Assembly (NCBI RefSeq): GCF_001484045.1
Contig: NZ_CP013128.1
Location: 414,283-478,282, forward strand
From: Mycoplasma sp. (ex Biomphalaria glabrata)
GTDB lineage: Bacteria > Bacillota_I > Bacilli_A > Mycoplasmatales > GCF-1484045
Direction of reading: 5' to 3'
DNA length: 64,000 nucleotides
The notes below the pieces were generated by a model. That model ran no database searches and had not been told where the DNA came from. It was given only the letters and a program-made list of their open reading frames with translations. Position numbers and translations under genes: made by a program. Below are positions 33,231 through 62,779 of this stretch, in pieces (position 1 is the first letter of the stretch; each line of letters opens with the position of its first letter).

Positions 33231-36200
33231 ATGAAAAAAATAATTATTAATGGAACAACAGCTGCCGCTTTAACAGCTTATCAATTTTCAGAGGTTTGTG
33301 CTATTTATCCAATTTCGCCATCTTCAAGTATTTCAGAATACATGGATATTTACTCAGCAAAGAAAAAGGCGAATGTTCTAGGAAATGTGGTTGATATTAT
33401 TCAAATGCAATCTGAAGTAGGAGCGATAGCTGCTGTTCATGGAGCTTTACAAACTGGAGTATTGTCATCTACATTTACTTCTTCGCAAGGTTTATTATTG
33501 ATGTTGCCAAATCTTTATAAATTACGTGGAGAAATGTTGCCATCTGTTATATATGTAGCGAGTCGTTCAATCGCTTCTAGAAGTTTAAGTATTTTTTGTG
33601 ACCATCAAGATATTTATGCGACAAGAATTACTGGTGTTCCAATAGTTTCTGCCGCATCAGTTCAAGAAATTTTAGATTTAGCTCCAGCCATTCATGCATC
33701 ATCTTTACAAGCATCATCACCTTTTATTTTCTTTTTTGACGGATTTAGAACAGGTCATGAAACTCAAAAAGTGGAAGAGTATACACAGGAAATGTATAAT
33801 CAATTTCTAAATAATGATGATTTAACGAAATTTAGAAATAGAACTATGACCCCAATGGATCCAGATACACGCGGAACGTCAGAGGATGAATCCTCTTTTT
33901 TTCAATCTATTGAGTCACAAAATTTTCAAAATCAATTAATTATTGATTCAGTAAAAGAACAATTCAAAAAAGTGGAGAAATTAACAGGTCGTCATTATGC
34001 ACCTTTTGTTTATAATGGCGCAAAAAATCCTAAATATGTAATGATTATTATGGGTTCAGCAACAGAAATTGCAGAAGAAACAATCAACAATTTAAACGAG
34101 AAAAATGATGAATATGGTGTTATAAAAGTTCATTTGTATCGCCCATTCAGTGTAAAAGATTTTGTTAATGTTTTACCTAAATCTGTGCAAAAAATTGTTG
34201 TTTTAGACCGTGCTAAAGAATGGGGTGCTAATGGTGAACCACTATATTTAGATACTGTTGCAACAATAAACGAAAACAAAGATCAATTTAAAAAATTAGA
34301 CCTAATTATTGGTGGAAGATATGGTTTGAGTTCAAAAGATTTCAATCCTGCAATGGTAAAAAGCTGTTTTGATCATTTACAATCTAATAATCCATTTCAT
34401 TCATTCACTGTCGGAATTAATGACGATATGAACATGACATCTATTAAAATCGATGATTCATATATTATCGAAAAAAGTGACGAAAAATCATACTTGTTTT
34501 GAGGTCTGGCTGGTGACGGAATGGTTTCAGCTGGAAACACAATTACCAACTTTATTGGCGAAAATTCAAAAGATAATGTACAAGTTTATGTTACTTATGA
34601 TTCAAGAAAAGCTGGCGGAATTACAAGAAGTTTTTTGCGAGTTAGTCCAAAACAAATTAAAGCTCCATACTATTCGCAAGCAAATAACTTAATTCTTTGC
34701 TCGAAGGATAGTTTTGTTCTTTCTATAAGAAGTATGTTGTCTACTTTAGGGAAGAATGGGATTTTCTTATTGAACACTCAAAGAACATCGCAAGAAATTG
34801 TTGAAATATTACCAAATCGAATGAAAAAACAATTAGCTGATAAAAATGCCAAATTTTATATTATTGATGCAATGAAATTGTCGAAAGAAGCTGGCCTAGG
34901 TGAAAGAATGAATACTGTTATTCAGATGGCGTTTTTATACCTTATTTCAGATGAGAAAAAATTTAATGAATCAAAACAAACATTAAAAGACATTGTTGAA
35001 AAAACTTATGGGAAAAAAGGACAAGACATTGTTGAAGCAAATTTTAAAGCTATGGATTTAGTGTCAAAGGAAAATTTATTAGAAATTAATGTTGATCCTC
35101 ATTGAAAAAAACTACTTATTAATGAAAAACCGATCGACAAAAATATCTCATATGAGGAATTTACGAGATTAATGAACAACATGGATGGGAACGATATTCC
35201 AGTTAGTTTTTTTGCTTCTGAAATTAAAGGAAAGTCACTTTTAGATGGTAAAGCATTGAATCAAGACATTACATTCAATTTGAAACGACAAATGGCTAAT
35301 AATATTCCAGTTTGAAATCCAGAGAATTGTATTCAATGTTCACAATGTGCTTTTTATTGCCCACACGCTACTATCCGCGCTTTTCAATTAACTAATGAAG
35401 AAATAAAAAATGCTCCTAAATCTTTTCCAACCATTGAACAAACAAATCCCGCGAATCAAAAATACCGTTTTGCAATCCATATCGATGCAGAGAATTGTGT
35501 AGGCTGTGGTTTGTGTTCTAATATTTGCCCAGGAAAAGGTCCAGATAAAAAAGCCCTAAAAATGACACCAGCAAAAGAAGTAGCTTTTAAAAATGTTGAT
35601 TTAACTAATTATCTTTTCAAGAAAGTTGAATACAAAACAGATGGTTATTCAACTGATACCATTAAGGGAGCAGCTTTATTGTATCCATATTTTGAAGCTA
35701 GTGGAGCTTGTGCTGGATGTGGAGAAACTCCTTATTATCGTTTATTAACTCAATTATTCGGAAAAGATATGGTGATTGCTAATGCAACTGGATGTACTTC
35801 CATATATTCAGGAACATACCCCTTCACACCACTTACAAGAGATAAAGATGGTTTAGGACCAACTTGAGCCAATTCGTTATTTGAAGATAATGCAGAATTT
35901 GGTTTTGGAATGGTTAGTGCTTCATCGTATAAAAATAATGTTTTACGAGAAACAATTATCAAGAATCTAGATAAAGCAGAACCGGAATTTAAGGAAATTT
36001 TACAACAATATCTAATTGCGCAATCTCGCGAAGAACAACGAAATCTACGCTCTCAATTATTGACTTGAACTAAAAAAACTAAAGTTACTGAATTAAAACT
36101 AATTGATAATTTTAAAGATGTTCTTGTTAAAAAATCGCACTGAATTATTGGAGGAGATGGTTGATCATACGATATAGGTTATTCTGGTATTGATCATGTT

Positions 36201-36794
36201 GTTGCTAGTGGAAAAGATATAAACATTTTAATTTTAGATACGGAAGTGTATTCAAACACAGGTGGGCAAAAATCAAAATCTTCTCAAATCGCTTCGGTTG
36301 AAAAGTTTGCCTTTAATGGTAAAGATGTGGTGAAAAAAGATATTGCTTTAATTTTAATGCAATACAAAAATGTTTATATTGCTAAAATTTCTCTAGGAAT
36401 GAATCCAATGCAAGCAATTAAGGCTTTAAAAGAAGCAGAATCTTACGATGGACCATCAGTTGTAATTTGTTATTGTCCATGTGTAGAACACGGAATTAAA
36501 GGAGGAATGTTTAATCAAAGACTTCATTCAATGCAAGCAGTAATGACGGGTTATTGACAAATTTATCGTCATGATCCAAGATTAATTGATAAAAACCAAA
36601 ATCCATTTCAACTGGATTTTAAAAATCCTAATTTTGAAAATTTACAAACTTTTTTAATGTCAGAAAATCGTTTTGCAATATTGCAAAAAAATAATCCTAG
36701 TCACGCTCAAGAATTATATACTAAATTAAGAGCTAGTTTGGAAGATAAATTCAAACAAGTTAAATTTTTAAGTGAAAATTATTATGGAAAATAA
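33231..36794 (+). CDS. nifJ: Pyruvate:ferredoxin (flavodoxin) oxidoreductase
   Basis: A single-chain PFOR of 1187 residues, full length for the family. It oxidises pyruvate to acetyl-CoA and CO2 and reduces ferredoxin or flavodoxin. Domains in order: pyrimidine-binding domain I (IYPISPSSSISEYMD), domain III in the middle, two 4Fe-4S clusters (CIQCSQCAFYCPHA from C700 and CVGCGLCSNICPG from C756), and the TPP-binding domain with GDGWSYDIGYSGIDH near 976 and NTGGQ. Many TGA Trp codons. AAGGGG lies before the ATG. The end overlaps leuS by 11 bases. Unusual in UGA-Trp mollicutes, which normally use pyruvate dehydrogenase. Confidence 0.96.
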
Positions 36795-48285: not shown

Positions 48286-49908
48286 ATGTGATATTTATTT
48301 TTCTTTTTCTTTTTAATATTTGCATTATCAATAATTTATTTTTTATATAAAAAGATTCAAGTTTTAAATAGAAATATTAACTTTAAGGCTGAAGACATTA
48401 TTCCCTTTAGTTATTCATTTGATTCAAAAACGATATTATTTACAAAAAATGAAAGCATTTTTAATGAAGCAAGAGAAATCAGCTATGTTAATTTCTCATC
48501 ATATATCAGTTCAAAAAATCGATTAGATATTGATTTTTTATTTTCTAATTTCGGAAATATTTTTAATTATCGAGGTATTAATAGAATCGAATTATATTCA
48601 GATAAAAAGTCATATTCATATTTTTTAAAAATTTTGTCATCAGATAATAAAACAAAAACAGTTTACGGAGTTTTAGAACAGGTAAATGACTTTAGTGCAC
48701 ATCGCCATGTTCCTAAGAAAATTCTAGAAAAATATGAATTATCAAGTTATGTGAGCCATATAGATTTCATTATTAAGTCTAATCAAATTTTGAACCAAGA
48801 ATACTCTTCAAAAAATTTAGTAGGCAAGAAGTACGCTTTTGCTTATGCTAGTTTTATTAACAAAAATTCTTCAATTAACACTTTATCAAATAGTGATAAA
48901 GAGGATTTATTTGAATCGATAAAAGAATGTTTAAAAGAAATTAATTACGATAAAACTTATTTTGCTATAACTGATGATATGAATTTATTTATTTTCAAGT
49001 ATGACATTAGCAAACGAAGTGACTTGGAAAATTTTTGTCAAAAATTTAACGACAAATTGAATTCACGTTTGAACGCGAAAAGTATTATGGTATCGCTAAC
49101 TATGACTTTTGGAGTTTATTTTGGTAATCAAATAACAAAAAATGATGATTTACAACGTAATATGGAATATGCTAAAGTTAGTTGATATCAAGCTATTGCT
49201 TATAATTTATTCATTTATACTTATCACCCACAAGATTCCATATTAACTATTTCTAATAAAATCGAAAATCGTATTATTGAAGAACTAAAGAGAAATGAGT
49301 TATCTGTTACTTTTAGTGAAATTAAAAAAGAAACAAAAACATTTGCAAAACTAGCACAGTTAGACAAAAATATTTCCAAAAGTAAAAAAACCGACCAATT
49401 CATAATTCAATGATTTTTAGTTGAAAATAAATTTGCTGATTTTGTCGATTTAATTGCTAAGGAAACTAAAAAAGCTAATTGTAAAATTATGGTAAAAATT
49501 TCATTTGACACCCTAAAAACAAATTTGCAAAGCATTATTAATTATGAAAAAATAATTAAGGAAGAAAGATTTATATTTTTAATTTCAGATTATACATACG
49601 AAGACATTATGATATTAAAGTGAGTTTTTCAAATCTTGAAAAAACATGATATTGAATATGGTTTATGACATTTCAAATTTTATGACAATATGTACTCAAT
49701 CTTAAATCAAATTGAACCAAAGTACTTGATTTTATCATCAGATATTAACATAAGTATTGGAAAAAGAACAACTTTAATTGTTGCCTTACAAGGATTAGTT
49801 CAATATTGTGAGGAAAAAGATATTAAATTAATTGTTAATGAATTAGAAACGATTAAAAGTAAATATTACTACGATCAATTTAATATTAAAATGCGACTTT
49901 TACCTTAA
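48286..49908 (+). CDS. Membrane protein with degenerate GGDEF/EAL-like regions
   Basis: A 540-residue protein. One N-terminal helix (residues 2-20, MWYLFFFFLIFALSIIYFLY with TGA as Trp) anchors it. The middle part has the GGDEF fold rhythm (SLTMTFGVYFG, then LQRNMEYAKVSWYQAIAYN) but ITDDMNLFIF where the GGDEF motif would be. The C-terminal part follows the EAL layout (FIFLISDYTYEDIMILKWV and EPKYLILSSDI) but lacks the EAL, Asn and DDFG catalytic residues. So it is probably a non-enzymatic sensor scaffold. It lies 37 bases before the response regulator. This assignment rests on pattern and is moderate. Confidence 0.5.
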
Positions 49909-49945: not shown

Positions 49946-50598
49946 ATGAAAATATTAGTAATAGATGATAATAAACAAATCAATGATTATTGAAGTTTAG
50001 AACTTTTTCGTATGAACTTTTCAGTAGAATCTTCTTTTTCTATTGAACAAACATATACTTTATTAGAAAAAAATTCTTTTGACTTAATTTTATTAGATCT
50101 TCACTTAGGCACAAATGTTTGTGATGGATTTGAAATAATAGATTATATTAATAGAAAAAAATTTTCTACAAGTGTTATTGTAATTTCTGGAAACAATATT
50201 GAAGATTTTGATGAAAGTCAATTGCTGAAAATTAAAAACTCCTTTGCATTTGTTAAAAAACCATGTCTTAAAAATGAATTAACCCTTGTTATCGAAAAAT
50301 GACTTACGTATGTTAAAAACAAAAACATAATATCTTACGGGAAATATGAATTAGATTCAAATAAAAAAATTATTTACAAAAATAAAAAATTTTAAATCTA
50401 AGTGAAATTGAATACAGTATTCTATCACATTTAATTGTTGCTCAAGGGAAAACATTGCCGAAAAAATACTTTTCTAATGAAATTAGTGACACATTAGAAC
50501 AACATTTAGGTGTTTACATTTTTAGATTACGCGAAAAAATTGGTTCTAATTCGATAATTTTAATCAGAAATAAAGGAATTTTACTAAATTATGAGTAA
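49946..50598 (+). CDS. OmpR/PhoB-like response regulator, frameshifted
   Basis: A receiver domain (residues 1-120): acidic pair D7-D8 in MKILVIDDN, phosphoacceptor D51 in LILLDLHLG, Ser in VIVIS and conserved Lys in FVKKP. After KNKKF the frame stops at 50393-50395. The -1 frame continues without a break as LNLSEIEYSILSHLI, ending at 50598 with a winged-helix-like segment (LEQHLGVYIFRLREKIG), as expected for an OmpR-type output domain. One more T in the run at 50390-50393 would give a normal regulator of about 217 residues. It overlaps the sensor kinase gene by 8 bases, forming a two-component pair beside pst. Confidence 0.8.
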
Positions 50599-51844
50599 AT
50601 TAAGAATAACAATAGCATTAATAAATTTTTTCACCAATAAAAGAAAAATCGAAATATCCTTTTTAATTTCATTTGTTTTTTTAATTTGAATTCAAATGCT
50701 AACCATTTGATCAGTGGCTTACTATGTCCACGGAGGATGGTTATTTAGTAGAGCTGATTTTTATTACACAATAATGCCTCTAGCAATATTTAATGGGGTT
50801 TATTGTTTCGGATTTGCATTATTTTGAGGATTAGCTGCATATATAAATATAACAAGCTCAAGTTATGTTTCGAAAATTAGGGATGATATAAAACACCAAC
50901 TTTTGGAAGAAGGAAACAGAATTAACTTAAACAATGAAGCATTTAAAAATATTAGTATTCATGACATCTTAAAATCTTCTAACGATCCAATTTTCATTAT
51001 TGATAATAAAAATAACATTTATACAAATGAAGATATTCTTGCTAGGATCTGACCAAGTGATAATTTATTGATTAAAAATAGAATTCTAAAGTTATCTAAA
51101 TGAAGATTAAAAAATATTAGCATTAATGAGAGTCATTATTTAATTGATTACTATGACATTAAATCAAATGATTATTTAATAATAATTATGAGAGATATTT
51201 CTCAATACCATTACGATAAGAAGATTACTCGCCATGAAATAAAGAATAATTTACAAAATATTTTAATAGAAATTGATAGTAATAATGTCGATAGTACAAT
51301 TAAAGATAATATTTCATTTCATATTAAGAAAATAGATGAGTATTTAAATAACTCGGGGAAAATTGAATTAAATATTGAAAACGTTGATCTAAAAATTTTT
51401 GAAAAACAACTTTTTCAATCAATAAATAATGAAAAATATGAATTAATTATTACAAATAAATTGAATATTAATAATTGATTTTTTGATAAAAATAAAATTG
51501 AACATGCTATAAAAAATGCTGTTCTAAATTCATTTCATCATGCTGCAGTAAATAAAGTTAATCTAGATATAACAACTGATAGTAAATATTTACATTTTTC
51601 TATTATTGATTTAGGAAAAGGAATTGATCAAATTTCATTAAATGATGTCAAACAAGGTCACAATAATATTGGATTTGACCTAATTAACAATATTATAGAA
51701 GCTCATAAAAATAAAAACGGAGAAGCTGGATTTCTTACAATTAATTCGAAAAAAGATGTTGGAACTCTTGTCAAAATTTCAATTCCTAACATGAATAAAA
51801 TTACAAAAAATTACAAAACAATGTATAATATTAACGAAATTTAA
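50591..51844 (+). CDS. Sensor histidine kinase, PhoR-like
   Basis: A 417-residue membrane sensor kinase. Two hydrophobic helices (about residues 22-45 and 66-90), a PAS-like region (DPIFIIDNKNNIYTNE, about 135-150), H-box TRHEIKNN with H215 as the phosphorylation site, N-box HAIKNAVLNSFHHA near 305, G1 IDLGKGID, G2 GHNNIGFDLINNI and GTLVKISIP. All elements of a functional kinase appear present. It is followed 51 bases later by pstS, so by location it would sense phosphate as PhoR does. Many TGA Trp codons. Confidence 0.85.
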
Positions 51845-51895: not shown

Positions 51896-53080
51896 ATGCT
51901 AAAACGTTACTATAAGAAGATATTAGTTGTTCTTGCAGTTATCGCCTTGCTATCATTTACTCTTGTTGGTTTCCTTGTTAAAGGAAGTAATGTTCTAGTA
52001 GCGGCAGGTAGTACAACTGTTTTGCCTTTATTAGAAGACGGTGCAGAGGAATATAACGCTCAAACTGGACAAAAAATTACAGTTTCTCCGGGCGGAAGCA
52101 CGGTTGGTATTGAATACATCAAACAAAAAAACAAGATAGTAGATTTTGGTGACTCTTCACGTTACCCTAAGGAAGCTGAAGTTGGTAGTGATTATTCTGA
52201 TTGAAAAAATCTTTCAACAATTACGTTAGCATATGATGTTGTTGTAATGATTGTTAACCTAGAAGAAACGGGATGTTCTGTTACACAAGGAAATAATTTA
52301 ACATTAACTCCTCAAGAACTTCTTGATATTTATTCTGGAAAGATTACTACATGATCACAATTAGCACAAAATGATCCAGGAACTCATTTAAGTTGTTCAT
52401 CACAGAACAATGAAACATGACTTGTTATGAGAGAGTCTGGTTCTGGAACAAGGGATGCTTTTTTTCAAGCTCTAGATCAATATTCAGGTGCTAAGAGTGG
52501 AACATCGCAAAATTTATATATAGCATCCTCACATGGTAATAAAGCCAATCATAGTCTGGAAGTAAATTCAACAGGTGGAGTTGTAACTGATGTTGATAAT
52601 AATCCAGGAGCAATCGGTTTTATTTCACTCGGATACGAATCTTCTGTTAAAAAATCAACATTCGTTTCAGTAAAAACATCATCTACTCAATATAATCCGT
52701 TAGACGCTGGTTTCGAAAGTAATGTCTACAATCAATCGATTTCGAACGCTAATCCAGCTACTCCAGATAAAAATAATTATCTATTTTGACATCCAATGAA
52801 CGTTATTATTGATGTTACGAATAATCGAATGCCTGATATTAGAACATTTATTATATGATTACTTGATTACGAAATTAAACAATACGACGGAGGCAAAGGA
52901 TCTTTCGGATACATTCCGCCAGATATTAGTAGCATAAAAGGAAATACGCCGATTGAAAAAATAACTACATATTGAGACGAAATTTTAAGTATTTCTGATA
53001 AAGATAAAGCTGCTAAATTACAATATAATAAACCATGATGAGAAAATACATTCGATATCATTGCGAAGTGAACGTGATAA
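51896..53080 (+). CDS. pstS: Phosphate ABC transporter substrate-binding protein PstS
   Basis: PstS, 394 residues, captures phosphate outside the membrane. N-terminal hydrophobic helix (about 9-29) without a lipobox Cys, so it is probably anchored by this helix rather than by lipid. AAGSTTVLPLLEDGA and SPGGSTVGIEYI, then MRESGSGTRDAFFQA, are the phosphate-binding motifs. GAGGAG before the ATG. Heads the pst-phoU operon. Confidence 0.95.
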
Positions 53081-53086
53081 TAAAAT

Positions 53087-53980
53087 ATGAAAACTACATC
53101 AATTTTAAAAAAATACGAAGATAAAAAGCAAATTATTGATCAAATTGCTAAATACAGTACTTTAATAATTGCTATATTTTTTGGTGCAATATTTCTTTCA
53201 ATATTAGTTTTTTTAATTGTTCGCGGTGTAAACGGATTAGCAGATATTTTTTCAGTAACAAAATGAGATTTTGTTAATAATTATGGAGTTTTGCCTGTCC
53301 TTGTTGGGTCATTATTTGTAACTTTATTTGCTATTTTAATTTCATTACCAATTTCGCTTTGTACATCGATCGTTATTAATGAATTTACAACTCAAAAAGT
53401 GCGAATTATTTTAATATCAATTGTTGAAATATTAGCAGGAATTCCTTCAGTAATTTATGGTTTCTTTGGGGTTATGTTTTTTGTAGAAAACGGTTTATTA
53501 AATTATTCAGTTTTTTTAGCTGCTCTAATATTGGCATTTATGATTGTGCCAAACATCACACACTTTATTAATATTTCTTTACAAACTTTACCAGAACACT
53601 ATCGCAATGCCTCATATGCTTTAGGAGCTAATCGCATTGAAACAATTATGAAAGTTTTAATTCCAAATATTCGTAGCGGAATTATGGCTGGAACGATGAT
53701 TGGTTTATCAAGAGCGATTGGTGAAACAATTGCTGTAACAATGTTAATTGGAGGAACATCTAATATCGATGCTCATTCATTTTTCACAGATTTTTTTAAC
53801 TCATTTTTGTTTGCTCCAAATTTAACATTATCATCTGTTATTGCCAATAACTTCCTAGAAGCCACTAAACATGAGCAAGACATTTTGTATGCAATTGCGA
53901 TTGTTTTATTATTGCTTGTAACAATAATTAACTTTTTTGCTTTATGAATTATTAGAAGTAGGGAAAAAAATGCTAAATAA
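53087..53980 (+). CDS. pstC: Phosphate ABC transporter permease PstC
   Basis: PstC, 297 residues, about six membrane helices. EILAGIPSVIYGFFGVMFFV and the cytoplasmic loop ASYALGANRIETIMKVLIP (EAA motif contacting PstB) are typical. One TGA Trp near 53945. Overlaps pstA by 11 bases. Confidence 0.95.
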
Positions 53981-54893
53981 ATACACTAGAAATGCGAAAA
54001 ATCGTTCGATATATTATTGATCTTGATTAGTGATCTTATTTTCAGGAACTTTTGTTACTATTGGTTTTACTTTCTTAATTCTGTTTTACATTATCATTAA
54101 CGGATTACAACATTTTCATTTAGACATGTTGGGGAAGCCATATAATTCAAAATCACCAATGAGTGGAGGGATGGGACCATTCCTGTTATCATCACTGATG
54201 ATTTTATTTCTAACAATGGTGATGTCGATTCCATTATGTTTATTCTTTGCAATTTATTATGTTGAATATTTAAAGAATCCTCGTACTAAAGATATTATTT
54301 TTTCAACATTAAATGTTTTAAATTCTATTCCATCAATTATTTTTGGAATTGTTGGGAATACAATATTTGTTGTCACTTTTCACTTAGGTTATACAGGATT
54401 TTCCATTTTATCAGGTTCATTAACGTTGTTCTTAGTAATTTTTCCAATTTTATCAATTTCGATGATTCAAGCAATGACAAAAGTATCACGCATTACAATT
54501 GAGAGTTCTTATGCGCTTGGTTCAACAAAATGACAAACTATTTATAAAGTTCTTTTACCTGAGTCAATGAAATCGATGTCAGGAGGGATTATTCTATCAA
54601 TTAGTAGAGTCCTTGGAGAAAGTGCTCCAGTATATTTAACTGTTGGTGCTTCCGTTTTTGCTCCTGCTAATTTCTTAGACCAAGGTCGATCACTTGTTGT
54701 ATGTATTTTCTTATTGTTTCAAAATCCAAGTCCTGGTAGTACAGACTTTATTTATTCAATGGCCTTTGTCTTAATATTTTTAATTTTTATAATAATAGTT
54801 ACAACAAGAATCTTCTTCTTCTTTATTGATAAAACAAATATTCAAGAGAAGAGAAAGCTTAAAGGTGTGTATGAAAAAATTTTTAAAAGATAA
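53970..54893 (+). CDS. pstA: Phosphate ABC transporter permease PstA
   Basis: PstA, 307 residues, partner of PstC. LNSIPSIIFGIVGNTIFV and the EAA-like loop SSYALGSTKWQTIYKVLLPE, then SRVLGESAPVYLTVG, are typical. GGGAAAAAA before the ATG. Overlaps the pstB start by 23 bases. Confidence 0.95.
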
Positions 54894-55794
54894 AACTGAA
54901 AAACTAAAATTAAGAAAAAAAACTAAATCGACAACTCAAGTTGATAAAGATTTAATCATTTCTAATACACAAGAACTGGATATTAATGATTTAGAAAAAG
55001 AAATTTCTCATAAAAAAATTATGCAATTTGATAACGTTAAAAAGAGTAAATTTGTATTTTCGGTTGAGAATTTGAATGTTTATTATGGTAAGAAACACGC
55101 TTTAAAAAATATTTCGATTGATATCGAAAAAAATAAAATTACAGCATTAATCGGACCATCAGGTTGTGGAAAAAGTACTTTTTTACGTTCTCTAAATCGC
55201 ATGAATGATTTTTTCCCAAGCATTAATATTGAAGGAACTATTTTATTTGAGGGTCAAGACATTTACAAAACTTTCCCAAATGCATCATTATTAAGATCGA
55301 CAATTGGAATGGTATTTCAAAAACCATCACCATTTTCTTTTTCAATATATGATAATATTGCTTATGCTCCCCGTATTCATGGAATTAAAAAGAAAGAGCA
55401 ACTAGATCAAATTGTTGAAAAATCTTTAAAGCAGGCAGCATTATGAGATGAAGTGAAAGATAATTTACATCATTCAGCACTTGAATTATCGGGAGGGCAG
55501 CAACAGAGATTGTGTATTGCTCGCGCTATCGCTCTTGAACCTGAAGTTATTTTATTAGATGAACCAACTTCAGCTCTTGACCCAATTGCTTCACAAAAAA
55601 TTGAAGAATTAATTGTGCAATTAAAAGAACGATACACAATTATTATTGTTACTCACTCAATGCGTCAAGCATCTAACGTTTCAGATAACACCGCTTTCTT
55701 TGTGAAGGGTGAAATTATTGAATACAATACAACAAAACACATTTTCTCAAAGCCAGAACATGAACTAACTAAAAAATACTTGCGAGGTGTTTAA
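54871..55794 (+). CDS. pstB: Phosphate ABC transporter ATPase PstB with N-terminal extension
   Basis: PstB, 307 residues. Residues 1-60 are a basic, charged extension not found in usual PstB (about 250 residues). Walker [30 protein letters not shown], signature LSGGQQQRL, Walker [13 protein letters not shown] are present, so it should be active. The ATG follows AAAGGTGTGT; upstream in-frame starts inside pstA are less likely. Confidence 0.95.
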
Positions 55795-55795
55795 A

Positions 55796-56455
55796 ATGAT
55801 CAATCAATTAGAATTAACAGAAGTTAAAAAAACCTTAAATAATTATTATTTAACAATTTTAGATTATTCAAATCAGATATTAAAAAAAATAGAAACCACA
55901 AGTTACGATTCAGCAAAATTAAAGCAATTAGTTGAACATGATTTAATCATCGATCGTGAACACTATAATTTAACAGAGGATTATATTTGATTTATTGCCA
56001 AAAAACGCCCACTAGCGTTAGATTTAAGAAGAATAATTGCTTATATTTTAATTATCAAAGAATTAGAACGTGTATCGGATGGATTTAAGAATGTTGCAAA
56101 AAATATTTTAAGTAACAATTGTCCACCTTCTGGTATCCACAAATATGTTGCCCCATTTTATAAAAAAATTGTTCATCAATTTGAAGATTTATCAAAAACA
56201 TTAACAAAGTACGACCTAGATACTTTGAAAAAAATTTCTGCTCAACACATGATAATTAATCAAGAATACCATAAAATCGCTAGTGAATTGAATCACCAAA
56301 CAGTTAAATCGACATCAGAATCAGAAGTAGCTTTGTTAACAAGTTACATTGTTTGTTTAAAAAATTTAGAAAGAACAGATGATCACTTAGTAAATATTTG
56401 TGAAGAAATTAACTATATTTATGAAGGAACTCATCAAATCGACAATGAAAAATAA
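55796..56455 (+). CDS. phoU: Phosphate transport regulator PhoU
   Basis: PhoU, 219 residues, all-helical with the two repeats that bind metal and damp PhoR signalling through PstB. RPLALDLRRIIAYILIIKELE and ELERVSDGFKNVAKNIL fit the family; LERTDDHLVNICEEINYI ends the second repeat. GAGGTG before the ATG. Presence of PhoU beside Pst and a sensor kinase makes a complete Pho system. Overlaps proS by 11 bases. Confidence 0.93.
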
Positions 56456-60995: not shown

Positions 60996-61646
60996 ATGAA
61001 TAGCAAAAGTAATGTTTTTATATCATTTTCATATAATCAATCAAAGGATTGAAAAGACGAAATTAGCGAAATGTTAGTAAAAAAAGATGTTATAGTAGAT
61101 TATTCCGAAAAGACAGACAGAGATCATCAAAATAATCCAGCAATCTGAAATGCGTTAAAATTAAGAATTGCCGGAGCATCTGTAACAGTTGTTTTGTACT
61201 CTGATGATTTTGAACAAGGAAAAGGCGGAAAAGCAATGGAGAAAAAAGATGATGCTAATGAATTAGATCCGCAATTTAACCAAGGATGAATTTATAAAGA
61301 AATTAGAGAATCACTAGTGGATGCTCAAAATAATCCAGTTAATGGCATTCTCGTTATAATGCCTGATGAAATATATGATGAATATCATCAAGTTGTTTCT
61401 TGTACGAAAACATCAGAACCAAGAATCCAAATTTTCGCAGATACCATCCCCCCTATAATAAAAGAAAACATTTTAAATGTTCATGATAAATTTAAAAAAT
61501 CTGTATGCTCATGTTGTTGTAATTTTATTGAAGATTCATACATATCAATAATTAAATATTCTTCTTTTTGTAAAAATCCAGTTTATTACATTAGTGAAAC
61601 TAAGAAAAAAAAGGGTAGAGCAAAAGAATTCAAAATTCGATATTAA
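60996..61646 (+). CDS. TIR-like domain protein (ThsB/DUF1863 type)
   Basis: A 216-residue soluble protein with the MTH538/ThsB-type TIR-like fold: NVFISFSYNQSKDWKDEI (residues 6-23), ASVTVVLYSDDF (61-72), GWIYKEIRESL (97-107, with E102 in the place of the catalytic Glu) and GILVIM. In Thoeris defence, ThsB proteins make a cyclic ADP-ribose signal after phage infection. A Cys cluster (CSCCC) lies near residue 170. It is followed 13 bases later by a membrane protein, so the pair could be a sensor and effector. Family assignment moderate to good. Confidence 0.75.
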
Positions 61647-62703: not shown

Positions 62704-62779
62704 AGGGGTATAGTTCAATTGGTAGAACGGCGGACTTCAAATCCGCGTGTTGTGGGTTCGAGTCCTGCTACCCCTGCCA
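62704..62779 (+). tRNA. tRNA-Trp (TCA), reads UGA
   Basis: Acceptor AGGGGTA with TACCCCT, anticodon loop CTTCAAA giving anticodon TCA, T-loop GGTTCGAGTCC, discriminator G and encoded CCA. The UCA anticodon decodes UGA as Trp (and UGG by wobble), the basis of genetic code 4 in this organism. Confidence 0.96.

Follow-up and report, generated by a model that had tools for sequence, protein, structure and literature searches.

The 64,000-nucleotide stretch of DNA analysed here (the window) encodes, directly upstream of pstSCAB-phoU, a response regulator and a sensor histidine kinase that, judged from their sequences, very probably make up a divergent two-component system for phosphate, of the PhoBR (PhoPR) kind. 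The pair is real, rare and divergent, and it is possibly in decay in the window genome. The first-pass annotation had described a PhoBR-like pair at this locus; a pair does lie beside pst, but its regulator is frameshifted between the receiver and the DNA-binding domain. Support for the PhoBR assignment comes from receiver and HATPase profiles that score above their cut-offs, from alignment of the kinase to a PhoR profile and from the adjacent pstSCAB-phoU genes, and the winged helix, even out of frame, still scores as Trans_reg_C. The assignment is strengthened by a second genome of the order, G001, which has the same gene order with an intact regulator, by the pst or phoU neighbours of class-wide relatives and by the 99/97 grouping of pst-locus regulators. 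It is weakened by the reading frame of the regulator, the absence of a Pho box, scores far below cut-off with the NCBIfam PhoB and PhoR models, the degenerate G1 box of the G001 kinase and the failure of a class-wide tree to resolve.

Table 1. Features of the regulator-kinase-pst locus in the window
Feature	Position	Strand	Evidence
Membrane-anchored degenerate GGDEF-EAL protein, directly upstream of the regulator	48286..49908	+	Pfam EAL E 0.0016; GGDEF-EAL structure matches
PhoB/OmpR-type response regulator: receiver and first effector-domain strands, frameshift stop at end	49946..50395	+	Response_reg E 4e-14; D7, D8, D51, S81, K105
Frameshift separating receiver from winged helix, at AAAAAATTTT tract and TAA stop	50384..50395	+	Comparison with G001
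Winged helix (Trans_reg_C), rest of the regulator, -1 frame, open until kinase start	50389..50598	+	Trans_reg_C E 1.6e-5
Putative PhoR-like sensor histidine kinase: two TM segments, PAS-like region, DHp with H215, HATPase_c	50591..51844	+	HATPase_c E 5.8e-7; hhalign; G001 homologue
pstS, phosphate-binding protein	51896..53080	+	PBP_like_2 2.5e-25; ptsS_2 2.1e-30
pstC, permease	53087..53980	+	BPD_transp_1
pstA, permease	53970..54893	+	BPD_transp_1
pstB, ATPase, start uncertain	54826..55794	+	ABC_tran
phoU	55787..56455	+	PhoU 1e-22; phoU_full 8.5e-33, under that model's cut-off

Both the regulator and the kinase are present as open reading frames under code 4. The UGA-Trp code proposed for this DNA is borne out by the many TGAs that stand in frame within conserved genes and by a UCA-anticodon tRNA (62704-62779), which ARAGORN called SeC and which, by context and code, is probably tRNA-Trp(UCA). 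The receiver residues named in the annotation (the acidic pair D7/D8, the phosphoacceptor D51 and K105, the lysine of FVKKP) are all in place, as is S81, the serine of VISG, and the Response_reg match lies above the curated Pfam cut-off. Because the -1 frame just downstream encodes an OmpR-type winged helix, the regulator gene carries a frameshift; it is a split gene for a full OmpR/PhoB-type protein, not for a receiver-only protein. The receiver frame ends in ...YELDSNKKIIYKNKKF and a stop, and the -1 frame then reads LNLSEIEYSILSHLI...RNKGILLNYE and a stop, reaching the start of the kinase. This frame is open over 70 aa with no internal stop, and its product aligns with the G001 regulator, in which the winged helix is in frame, and with the orphan regulators of related families. 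In the assembled sequence, translation of the receiver does not extend into the DNA-binding half. The receiver part scored 30.9 bits against the PhoB equivalog model (NCBIfam TIGR02154) and the G001 regulator 65.8 bits, both short of the cut-off of 296.2.

The break lies at AAAAAATTTT, an A6T4 tract, where inspection of the alignment with G001 shows that one missing base and two extra bases both fit. Of the possible origins of the frameshift we rank a recent mutation as the most likely, a sequence error as less likely and recoding as the least likely, and we think that a recent mutation is probably what occurred. A sequence error, which would make the regulator an ordinary full-length PhoB-type protein, would agree with the intact homologue in G001, the conservation of the downstream frame and the position of the break in the A6T4 tract; we nevertheless consider it unlikely, since the window holds many A/T runs of equal or greater length without a reading error and the alignment does not favour one missing base over two extra. 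Some 200 A or T runs of at least six bases lie unbroken inside 25 long ORFs totalling 33 kb, and this regulator is the only apparent split gene in the window on an ORF map judged by ORF lengths and spacing rather than gene by gene against relatives. The longest A or T run in the window, whose DNA is about 28% G+C, is of eight bases; the lack of longer runs may reflect either selection against them or an assembly effect. Recoding, by ribosomal -1 slippage or transcript slippage at AAAAAA, would yield a receiver-only protein together with some full-length regulator. The shift is indeed in the -1 direction, on an A6 run just ahead of the stop, and both frames look conserved, but the tract is not a canonical X XXY YYZ heptamer, no stimulatory RNA structure was found downstream of it (z 0.6) and G001 does without a frameshift, and we regard recoding as quite improbable.

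The system may, on the other hand, already be dead, with the frameshift fixed, the kinase and the receiver remnant decaying and pst free of their control, a serious contender to which we give rather less than even weight. It would explain why the winged helix is out of frame in the sole apparent split gene of the window, and the intact A/T runs speak against an assembly that is error-prone throughout; related families have also often lost kinase and receiver function, and no Pho box was found at the locus. Against this, the winged-helix frame is free of stops and still matches its family, the kinase retains both its full length and its motifs, and a single base error is possible. Given the open winged-helix frame and the full-length kinase, any decay would therefore be recent.

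The kinase features listed in the first-pass annotation could all be placed: H215, the N-box HAIKNAVLN at 305, the G1 box DLGKGI at 340, the G2 box at 358, two hydrophobic segments (about 22-46 and 60-82) and a PAS-like region (about 126-200), the last aligning with the PAS of pst-linked PhoRs in hhalign only. The HATPase_c match is above the curated Pfam cut-off. When compared by hhalign with a PhoR profile made from eight kinases of the class, six of them adjoining pst- or phoU-linked regulators, the kinase aligned with 81% probability over 268 columns spanning the PAS, DHp and ATPase regions, and H215 fell opposite the histidine of SHELKTP in the pst-linked PhoRs. Of the domain profiles that had been put forward for checking the pair, Response_reg, HATPase and, out of frame, Trans_reg_C found their matches, but Pfam HisKA had none in the kinase. 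The match to the NCBIfam PhoR model is far under its cut-off, and the AlphaFold model of the kinase is poor (pLDDT 35).

Profile searches confirmed the annotated position directly upstream of pst, with the kinase followed by pstS, pstC, pstA, pstB and phoU. By analogy, we infer phosphate as the signal, phosphotransfer and regulated targets for this pair. The membrane kinase would learn the phosphate status from PstSCAB-PhoU, autophosphorylate on H215 and phosphorylate the regulator at D51; the regulator's winged helix would then control the pst genes, which probably lie on the same transcript as the regulator. It is very unlikely that the pair serves another signal and only happens to adjoin pst: family-level matches of OmpR-type regulators and kinases are promiscuous and the intramembrane sensor is short, yet the linkage to pst recurs in G001, in other families and among the top class-wide relatives. 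A scan for Pho boxes near the window operon and in G001 gave no array above shuffled sequence. Marginal Pho-box-like arrays lie upstream of pstS, beside orphan regulators, at three other loci of the order (L012, L060 and L068); these are TTAACA-like tandem repeats with a period of about 10 bp, reached by 0.5-4% of shuffles. The AlphaFold model of the GGDEF-EAL-like protein encoded ahead of the regulator is also poor (pLDDT 47), and a fold search with this low-confidence model matches GGDEF-EAL structures. Its homologue in G001 occupies the same place upstream of the regulator (L003 10946-12739). EAL-like proteins occur in 62 of the 320 genomes of the order, so the gene is not specific to the phosphate pair.

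Mycoplasmas have been stated to lack two-component systems (PMC9282661), and a study of Spiroplasma eriocheiris detected none (PMC5289999). Among the 320 genomes of the order, the pst-linked kinase-regulator pair occurs only in the window genome and in G001, which belong to different families, and it is not widespread in ordinary mycoplasmas. The genome paper of M. penetrans reportedly describes a two-component system. The rarity claimed in the first pass thus holds for the pair, but the window genome is not unique, and OmpR-type regulators without a kinase are less rare, Trans_reg_C being present in 34 of the 320 genomes. A kinase model built from the kinases of the window genome and G001 matched nothing else in the order apart from a small fragment in G303, and Response_reg was found in nine genomes at E 0.001. 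Some of the OmpR-type regulators in families f3, f7 and f10 (L012, L014-L017, L050, L060, L068) resemble the window locus in placing a Trans_reg_C protein upstream of pstSCAB-phoU, with one intervening gene in L050; they differ in that there is no adjacent kinase and the receiver is either without catalytic residues or unrecognisable. In the orphans of L012 and L017 the phosphoacceptor Asp is replaced by Glu. Other mollicute OmpR-type regulators sit elsewhere in the genome, away from pst. Because kinase-less OmpR-type regulators are fairly widespread, some of them upstream of pst, what mollicutes without a two-component system have lost is the kinase and the phosphorylatable receiver, not the whole protein family.

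Most of the selected relatives gave two HATPase matches each, the number to be expected from two topoisomerase subunits. G017 has an OmpR-like orphan and only two HATPase matches, probably gyrase/topoisomerase subunits; no receiver match was found in it, and at its pst locus pstS comes straight after metG, without an intervening regulator. Additional HATPase matches occur in G254, G255 and G261, relatives in f3; those in G254 and G255 were rejected as kinases, the genes being followed by a long ORF that we take to be of Z1-like type. A receiver match in G280 (L013 302-5033) was likewise rejected as a pst-type pair: its neighbours are a C5 DNA methyltransferase and an ATPase of 862 aa whose C-terminus is kinase-like, and the locus looks like a defence island. 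The match in G300 was set aside as well, being on a small contig that has no in-frame TGA and looks foreign. Elsewhere in the window, a ThsB-like TIR domain protein (60996-61646; Pfam E 1e-5) possibly functions in anti-phage defence, and a pyruvate:ferredoxin/flavodoxin oxidoreductase with 4Fe-4S domains (33231-36794), an enzyme unexpected in a mollicute, suggests an anaerobic habitat.

In an unrooted tree, the pst-locus regulators of the window, G001 and f3 form a group of their own (99/97) among the mollicute OmpR-like proteins. When class-wide regulators were added, the tree did not resolve their origin or placement, and long branches meet in it. Among the best 20 class-wide matches to the G001 regulator with surroundings examined, six lie beside pst and/or phoU, and one of these, L127 (genome G378, from another order of the class), has the full canonical phoB-phoR-pstSCAB-phoU order. 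Inheritance from a PhoBR-bearing ancestor, followed by loss in most mollicutes, is the simplest reading and a probable one; the pair could instead have been acquired by transfer. The loci may also record a stepwise conversion of PhoBR, from an intact pair (G001) through a broken regulator (window) and an orphan with a damaged receiver (some with Asp to Glu, as in L012 and L017) to none at pst (G017), the remaining orphans still controlling pst without phosphorylation; we place this just short of an even chance. The presence of the pair in two families, together with kinase-less remnants at the pst loci of others, suggests an ancestral PhoBR and incomplete loss, and provides a natural series for following the decay of a phosphorelay to a one-component regulator in minimal genomes. 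The family of systems is already known; what is new is that it has survived in a UGA-Trp mollicute with a genome of 0.65 Mb, and that the loci seem to form a decay series.

A close counterpart of the window locus is that of G001 (family f2; L003 4398-12739), where the same eight genes stand in the same order: degenerate GGDEF-EAL, regulator, kinase, pstS, pstC, pstA, pstB and phoU. There the regulator is unbroken, with Response_reg and Trans_reg_C in a protein of 228 aa, whereas the kinase is shorter than that of the window and has a degenerate G1 box (DNNQP) and a poor HATPase_c score (E 0.12), so that the phosphate pathway of G001 may be failing too. With the PhoB-PhoR and PhoP-PhoR systems of Bacillota (e.g. 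L127 in G378) the window locus shares the regulator-kinase-pstSCAB-phoU order, a receiver and an OmpR winged helix, which here stand in different frames, and a membrane kinase with PAS, DHp and HATPase regions. In contrast to those systems, it is very divergent, with HEIKNNL in place of HELKTP as the DHp motif; its sensor is short and intramembrane, its regulator is frameshifted, and an additional degenerate GGDEF-EAL gene lies upstream.
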